From a bacterium (GTDB lineage Bacteria > Cyanobacteriota > Vampirovibrionia > Gastranaerophilales > Gastranaerophilaceae), in NCBI GenBank assembly GCA_017472545.1, contig JAFUPZ010000031.1:1-41256 (forward strand): 41,256 nucleotides of DNA. Direction: 5' to 3'. Position numbers and translations under genes: made by a program. The first letter of the stretch is position 1. Each line of letters begins with the position of its first letter. The notes beneath the pieces were generated by a model, which worked only from the letters and a program-made list of their open reading frames with translations, searched no databases and was not told the DNA's origin. This document shows, one piece after another, positions 17,248 to 19,612 of the stretch.

Positions 17248-18006
17248 TTATTGTTGTTTTCTATATTTGTCTAATAAGTTTGTAGAACCTGTATCAAAGT
17301 GTGTTGCAACTTGAGCAGGTTGTGCCTCTGCAACCGGTTGAGTTTCTTTCATACCACCTTGCATAGATGGTTGAGATTTGTCAGTTGCTTTGTTTTCTTC
17401 ATAAGTTCCGTTTTTCTTAGCTTCTCTTTCGTTCATCCATTTTTCAACTGAACCAGCAAGTGGAGTTGCAACAAGAGGAACTAACATACGTTTACCAACG
17501 ATAGCTGCAGATGCAAGTGACATAATACCGATAAATGCGTCTTTAACACCGTTATTAACTTTTGCAAATGCTTCGCTAAATTTAGGTCCAGAAATATCTG
17601 CAAATTCAGGTTTGTTTTTAACCATTGCGTGATAAGTTTTTCTAAGTGGTCTTTCAAACATCTTACCAACTGTTTTGTTGAATAACTTAGTTAGTAATGG
17701 TTTAGACATTTTGAATACTGCGATTTGGAATAAAATCATCAATAAACCGTTTGTCAAGTCTAATGATGCAACGAATTTACGTTTGTCATCTGGAATATTT
17801 TTGTTATTTAAACTTTGAGTTACGTACAAGTAGCAACCAAGACCGTCTTTTGCGATGATTGAAGCAACACCTAAACCATCAATGAAGTCTCTGTTATTGT
17901 TAAATACTTGTGTACCAGAGTATTTTGCAAGTCTTGAGTTTGCAACTTTGTCTAATACCCAGCCGGTAGCTCTTTTAATTGGTCCAAGTCTATTTATTGT
18001 CGCCAT
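17248..18006 (-). CDS. Lineage-type membrane protein, 252 aa, unknown function
   Basis: I do not know its function. It has two to three hydrophobic segments (about 85-102 LLMILFQIAVFKM; about 157-187 FIGIMSLASAAIVGK...VPLVATPLAG) within a basic protein, and a Gln/Ala-rich polar tail (residues 195-252). No signal peptide is present. The start is firm: AGGAGGT lies 5 nt upstream, inside the 3' end of the preceding gene, which it overlaps by 17 nt. It forms a cluster with the helical proteins encoded at 17990-19612, so these probably act together. The family resembles uncharacterised Gastranaerophilales membrane proteins (recall, not tested). Confidence 0.8.
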   Translation of the reverse strand: MATINRLGPIKRATGWVLDKVANSRLAKYSGTQVFNNNRDFIDGLGVASIIAKDGLGCYLYVTQSLNNKNIPDDKRKFVASLDLTNGLLMILFQIAVFKMSKPLLTKLFNKTVGKMFERPLRKTYHAMVKNKPEFADISGPKFSEAFAKVNNGVKDAFIGIMSLASAAIVGKRMLVPLVATPLAGSVEKWMNEREAKKNGTYEENKATDKSQPSMQGGMKETQPVAEAQPAQVATHFDTGSTNLLDKYRKQQ

Positions 18007-18538
18007 TTGCTACCTCCTGTGGTTTGTTATATTTGTTTTTCTTTGCAGAAGCAGCTTTGTTTGATAGTTCAGGGAATGCTAAATCCATGAACCAAGGATA
18101 AATTTTGTTCAATAGCCAACAAGTGAATGGTAGAATTGCTAGAGATACGCCCAAGCCTGTCCAACGTTTCATACCGTCGATGTTTGCTTTAACGTGTTTC
18201 TTTTGCTGTTCTGCTATACGTTTTGCCAATGACTTAGCTTTTTCAGTAAGTCTTGAACCTGTACATTCTATCCACTCAATAGCACTTTTGATTTCTGCTT
18301 CTGAACTACCTTTTGCTTTCAAGCTTTCAGCTACAGAGCCGAATGATTTTGCAATTTCTTCATTAACAATAGCTTGAGCTTCTTTTACTGTAAGATCTGA
18401 AGTAGCTAATTTATCTTTAATTTTTTCTAATGTTGCGATTGTGCCGTCAATAGCATCTGTTCTTCTTGTAACTGTTTCTGTTACATATTCAATGATTTCT
18501 TTTGTGTCTTTTGAACGCATTATTTCAATGTTGTTCAA
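17990..18538 (-). CDS. C-terminal half of a split helical membrane protein (after an in-frame stop)
   Basis: The reading frame is the direct continuation of the gene at 18629-19612: the same frame, uninterrupted except for one TAA at 18629-18631. From that stop, 30 sense codons lead to the TTG at 18538 and the first ATG is at 18520; neither has a Shine-Dalgarno. Content: long amphipathic helices or coiled coil (ATLEKIKDKLATSDLTVKEAQAIVNEE), then a membrane helix at about 128-150 (GLGVSLAILPFTCWLLNKIYPWF) and a lysine-rich tail. It therefore looks like the membrane-anchored end of a 539-residue protein. Either it is made by readthrough or re-initiation, or the gene is broken. It overlaps the next gene by 17 nt. 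Confidence 0.65.
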   Translation of the reverse strand: MNNIEIMRSKDTKEIIEYVTETVTRRTDAIDGTIATLEKIKDKLATSDLTVKEAQAIVNEEIAKSFGSVAESLKAKGSSEAEIKSAIEWIECTGSRLTEKAKSLAKRIAEQQKKHVKANIDGMKRWTGLGVSLAILPFTCWLLNKIYPWFMDLAFPELSNKAASAKKNKYNKPQEVANGDNK

Positions 18539-18628
18539 GATTTTTGTAATTTTTTCATCTAATAGTTTTAATGAAATAGGGTCAGAACCTGTGTTTTTAT
18601 CCCTGATTTCTTTTACTATCTTGATTAG

Positions 18629-19612
18629 TTATTTGTTTAATTTTTCTTTAGTTGAATCTTTTTTGATTTCTTCTTCTAAACCTTTTATTACAGCTTTACA
18701 TTCTTTGTTGAAGATTTTGTTTGCATTGATAATATCTTCAGAATTGTTCATGTTTGTTTGGTTGTATAGTTGGTTAATTTTTCCTTGTAATCTTTGAAGA
18801 ACAACGATTGTTTCATTAGGGTTGTCGTGAAGGAAAATACCACGTTCTATTTTCTTAGGAAGTTTCTTTTGTACGGCTTGAAGTCTTTGTTCTTTTTCTT
18901 CTTTGATGATAGCATCTAAAGTTTCTTCAAATAATTTTTTGAATTCAGCTTTTGGCATTTCTAAAGTACCATCAGTAACGCCGTTTGTTGTATTAAATAC
19001 GATTTTATCTTCTTCAATCATTTTTACGAAACGAGAGGAGTATTCTTTTTTACGAAGTTCGATAGCTTCTTTCATTTCGTCTTTTGTGAATTTTTTACCT
19101 GGATTTAATTGTTTAACTTCTTTTTTGAGGTAATTATCAGAAGGGAATAAAGATGCGTTTAATCCAGTTCTAAAGTAACCGATGTCAGAGAGTTCTTGAA
19201 TTAGTTTGTTAAACGGAATAACGATTGCTGCTTGTGTACAAACTGCTAGTACTGCAGAAACAGGTTGTCTCCATGCTGTGTATGTTCTTGTGTCCTCATC
19301 AGTTTTAGAAAATGGGTTAAACTTGATGAACATTGGAGCAACTAAACCTGTACCAATAGCGTTAATCAGTTGGTTTTGAACTTCCCCCATGCCTTCGTGA
19401 GCATTTTTCATCCATTTTACGCCACCTGGCATGATGCTTAATAAATACTCAGTAATATCGGTTGTTGCTTTAGCTGCAGCTTTCCCTGTACCAGTAAAGC
19501 TTACGCTATCTTGTGGAGAATCCAGATGCACTCTGTTCTTGACAGCTTTCGCGCTGAACAGATTAGGACCTGAAAGTGTGTCCACTTTGTTTTTAATCTT
19601 TTCGATACTCAT
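18629..19612 (-). CDS. N-terminal part of an F-T-G-T motif helical protein, 327 aa, unknown function
   Basis: Protein of unknown function, mostly helical, ending in a charged coiled-coil-like stretch (KECKAVIKGLEEEIKKDSTKEKLNK). Near the N-terminus residues 38-44 read SFTGTGK; a related F-T-G-T-K motif occurs at the start of the nucleotidase at 24199-25710. A modest hydrophobic segment lies at about 117-135 (VSAVLAVCTQAAIVIPF). The ATG has an AGGTG ribosome site. The frame continues past its TAA stop into the next gene, so the product is probably a truncated form of a longer protein. Other members of this cluster are likewise uncharacterised. Confidence 0.75.
   Translation of the reverse strand: MSIEKIKNKVDTLSGPNLFSAKAVKNRVHLDSPQDSVSFTGTGKAAAKATTDITEYLLSIMPGGVKWMKNAHEGMGEVQNQLINAIGTGLVAPMFIKFNPFSKTDEDTRTYTAWRQPVSAVLAVCTQAAIVIPFNKLIQELSDIGYFRTGLNASLFPSDNYLKKEVKQLNPGKKFTKDEMKEAIELRKKEYSSRFVKMIEEDKIVFNTTNGVTDGTLEMPKAEFKKLFEETLDAIIKEEKEQRLQAVQKKLPKKIERGIFLHDNPNETIVVLQRLQGKINQLYNQTNMNNSEDIINANKIFNKECKAVIKGLEEEIKKDSTKEKLNK

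Follow-up and report, generated by a model that had tools for sequence, protein, structure and literature searches.

The lone in-frame stop that divides a conserved gene in the window (the whole stretch of 41,256 nucleotides analysed, contig C103 of the draft metagenome-assembled genome G000) most likely does not reflect a new way of reading genes, but either a base error or a very young mutation. Judged from the sequence, an error is the likeliest status of this base, ahead of a true young mutation. We give somewhat better than even chances to the consensus of this fragmented metagenome assembly (1.51 Mb in 148 contigs, 82.4% complete and 4.2% contaminated) having taken up a base error, or else a minor or unfixed variant. 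This reading was absent from an earlier note on the window, which had listed a broken gene, readthrough or phase variation; it takes the lead once the fate of another gene of the same assembly, pheT, is considered.

On the minus strand, positions 19612 to 17990 form a single frame of 541 codons, exactly as the earlier note had described it: 327 sense codons, a TAA at 18629-18631 as the sole interruption, 212 sense codons and a TAG at 17990-17992 (Table 1). Continuation of the frame past the TAA is not due to chance, since the 212 codons show coding-like usage and match the orthologues column by column. The relatives end the gene with a stop directly next to the following ATG or overlapping it. 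This stop is absent here; the frame is thereby extended by five codons (NGDNK) and overlaps the next gene by 17 bases. That gene, the third in the numbering of the earlier note, starts at ATG 18006 and has the strong AGGAGGT upstream that had been attributed to it. The first in-frame ATG past the stop lies, as had been claimed, at 18520 (the first TTG is at 18538), and neither codon has a Shine-Dalgarno sequence, the duplex energy being +0.4 kcal/mol there versus -11.4 for the third gene.

Table 1. Features of the interrupted locus and other in-frame TAA codons of the same draft genome
Feature	Position	Strand	Remarks
Interrupted gene, first part	window 18629..19612	-	ATG, 327 codons, then in-frame TAA; orthologues L003-L017
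In-frame TAA (codon 328)	window 18629..18631	-	Sense codon in relatives: GAA in 12/15, AAT, GGT and CAA in the others
Second part, same frame	window 17990..18628	-	212 codons and TAG; conserved block KRWTGLGVSLAILP..TCWLLNKIYPWFMD; no ribosome site
Short C-terminal extension NGDNK	window 17990..18007	-	Ends of 16 genes compared
Next gene, 252 aa, intact	window 17248..18006	-	Own AGGAGGT; syntenic in relatives
pheT, in-frame TAA, codon 721	G000 contig C32, 19188-19190	-	Locus L195; GAA in 11/11 relatives
truB, in-frame TAA	G000 contig C55, 2924-2926	-	Locus L196; TAT in five relatives
SBD_N/NBD_C (four-carbon sugar kinase-like) gene, in-frame TAA	G000 contig C96, 17351-17353	+	Locus L170

Comparison with orthologues from 15 genomes of the same genus (48-68% identity, with synteny holding where checked) revealed an uninterrupted frame of 531-544 codons in every one of them. 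The alignment to homologues that the earlier note had called for thus gives a sense codon at the stop position throughout and a protein of about 540 codons, and its view of the locus as one gene stands, as no homologue is split in two. Among all matches in the genus, distant ones included, the internal stop occurs in this genome alone. Since 12 of the 15 orthologues have a Glu codon, GAA, in the stop column and no gap is found at the site, the stop amounts to one G to T change at a Glu codon.

The locus is a single gene for a helical and probably membrane-associated protein that is present throughout this Gastranaerophilales-type (Melainabacteria) gut genus. A membrane anchor had been assigned to the second part only, which the Kyte-Doolittle scale does not bear out: the stronger hydrophobic stretch (residues 120-138, 1.74) is in the first part and another (residues 486-504, 1.43) in the second. 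Neither part matched a Pfam or NCBIfam family above the cut-off, and a structure model of an intact relative (L032; mean pLDDT 69, built from 7 sequences) had no match in the PDB at E<=0.001. Near its N-terminus (residues 37-41, window positions 19490-19504) the protein carries a [VT][SN]F[TSGK]G motif. The motif is also found near the N-terminus of ORFs on contigs C33, C34, C36, C106 and C120 of this genome, which makes six otherwise different-looking ORFs, most of them with VSFTG, while it occurs at positions 60-115 in none of 837 ORFs; it is possibly a shared, lineage-specific N-terminal signal.

What lies behind the stop has been kept under selection. None of the 46 columns that are invariant in the relatives is changed here downstream of the stop, versus 3 of 81 upstream; the terminal branch of this lineage in the tree measures 0.273 for the downstream part and 0.341 for the upstream one; and pairwise dN/dS values against the two nearest relatives, obtained from Nei-Gojobori counts, are about 0.17-0.22 downstream and 0.23-0.24 upstream. 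Constraint is therefore undiminished in the substitution pattern past the stop, a check that had been proposed at the outset. Bootstrapping gave a neutral fraction of -0.06 for this lineage's branch (97.5% bound, 0.064), so that at most about 6% of the branch can have been neutral behind the stop. The 3′ half shows no decay and thus has not long been free of selection. Of the marks of a pseudogene, the gene bears a premature stop where its orthologues are intact, and neither relaxed selection nor further lesions.

A coding-potential screen, covering 1.117 of 1.513 Mb, looked for frames that continue in phase beyond a stop with no start close by, and gave nine hits. On inspection five had an antisense-like composition and four were real genes with a lone in-frame TAA: the window gene, pheT, truB and an SBD_N/NBD_C kinase-like gene. 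Other hits of the ab initio screen were rejected on inspection as antisense frames or normal gene junctions. In pheT, which is present in a single copy and otherwise intact, the stop cuts off the FDX-ACB domain (residues 730-817); in truB, also single-copy, it hits the conserved Tyr of the PP.YSA.K motif; and the kinase-like gene is uninterrupted in all the 45 other genomes of the genus. Identity to the relative G036 is 97.9% downstream versus 96.3% upstream of the pheT stop, and 87.1% versus 88.5% for truB, and constraint past these two stops is also intact. In a second draft genome, G010, pheT is likewise interrupted by a lone TAA (locus L209), here at codon 332, where the others have GCN or GAA; as the two positions differ, stops of this kind have independent origins in draft genomes. 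No such stop was seen in rpoB among about 150 matches listed across the order, and no frameshifted genes were found in G000 by a screen of low power. The original codons at three of the stops were Glu, Glu and Tyr. Two of these three changes are GAA to TAA, i.e. G to T, which is too small a number to establish an error spectrum of the oxidation type. That all four stops are TAA is unremarkable, because codon usage predicts a TAA share of 55% among random nonsense changes and hence a chance of about 0.09 for four out of four.

Bacteria studied to date cannot live without PheT. If this knowledge, which comes from other bacteria and is applied here by analogy, holds for the present organism, a living cell should not be without pheT, and yet the same assembly breaks it; for pheT, at least, a genuine loss through the stop is improbable. 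This is why we favour a base error or an unfixed variant in the window gene too: in the draft genome a single G to T substitution would have turned the Glu codon into TAA, entering the consensus of a fragmented metagenome assembly as an error or as a minor or unfixed variant, and it would not be fixed in the organism. Counting against an error, the remaining genes of the window are intact when compared with G036, so that errors are not rampant. With four in-frame stops in 1.12 Mb, those in the three genes besides pheT could also be true mutations.

Another possibility, to which we give a substantial chance though one short of even, is a very recent true nonsense mutation in the sampled strain. 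The gene would then be inactivated or truncated to a 327-aa product and its 3′ half left untranslated, while the next gene would retain its own strong ribosome site. One altered base in a Glu codon, with all else intact, is indeed the appearance expected of a very young nonsense mutation. Furthermore, the gene evolves fast for the window (67% identity to its G036 counterpart, compared with 80-99% for most neighbours) and has also lost its terminal stop. In this lineage it is not unusually accelerated against its neighbours. Against such a mutation, single-copy pheT has a stop of the same type, which could not be tolerated as a genuine loss should that gene be essential in this organism, and the reality of at least one stop in the assembly is therefore doubtful; in addition, the window gene has neither a second inactivating lesion nor relaxed constraint. 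Of the recent inactivation suggested in the earlier note, what is retained is a single gene whose stop is very young (at a codon that is GAA in most relatives), and the inactivation itself ranks below a base error.

The earlier note had also proposed that readthrough of UAA makes two forms of the protein. Readthrough, either programmed or due to a natural ochre suppressor, would give proteins of 327 and 540 aa and make the pheT stop tolerable, and it would account for the undiminished constraint downstream and for in-frame TAA being the only interruption in four genes, pheT among them. A modest hairpin lies 3′ of the stop, with a z of -2.1 that is unremarkable by itself, next to a stop that the relatives do not have. 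We nevertheless consider this very unlikely, because at each of the four genes the stop is found in this genome only, and in the window gene all 15 orthologues have a sense codon there. The residues replaced differ (see above), as do the following bases (C, A, T and A), and the exclusive use of TAA at these stops is what chance alone could well give. Moreover, UAA is an ordinary stop codon here, neither depleted nor backed by a second stop: TAA terminates 459 of 621 long frames (74%), versus 70 of 89 (79%) in relatives, and second in-frame stops are equally common after TAA and TAG. RF1 is encoded in the genome, and no UAA-reading tRNA is present among the 12 tRNAs with named anticodons, in an assembly that is incomplete and recovers tRNAs poorly. 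More improbable still is that the species tolerates in-frame UAA in several genes, pheT included, through partial decoding by a suppressor located outside the incomplete assembly, with UAA remaining the main stop. Our literature search brought up nothing specific to this lineage.

Two genuine genes, the second starting from TTG 18538 or ATG 18520, are scarcely credible: an ORF from the TTG does exist, but every in-frame start past the stop lacks a ribosome site, the 15 relatives have one gene, and the 30 codons from the stop to the TTG are conserved as protein. Just as little credit can be given to reversible phase variation through slippage or inversion, suggested in the earlier note and favoured by nothing more than the interruption itself, as the relatives align across the site without indel, no slippage tract or inverted repeat is found, and the short direct repeats within 100 bases of the stop are chance-like.

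These results mainly call for caution. In a metagenome-derived draft whose quality is nothing out of the ordinary, about 1.1 Mb contained at least four lone in-frame TAAs, and an essential gene was among those hit; one interrupted reading frame in a genome of this sort therefore argues only weakly for readthrough, recoding or gene loss. Should all four stops prove real, it would have to be asked in earnest whether UAA is decoded in this group.

When compared with known systems, the locus resembles programmed readthrough or natural UAA suppression in that conserved coding sequence runs on in frame past the stop, but it differs from them by the unconserved position of the stop, the lack of a shared context and the role of UAA as main terminator. 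With young bacterial pseudogenes arising by nonsense mutation, it has in common a lone premature stop against intact orthologues; unlike these, it shows neither further lesions nor a relaxation of constraint, so that a pseudogene would have to be extremely young. What it shares with nonsense base errors or unfixed variants in draft genomes assembled from metagenomes is a lone substitution stop with the frame intact on both sides, unshared by relatives, and of a kind that also strikes a normally essential single-copy gene.
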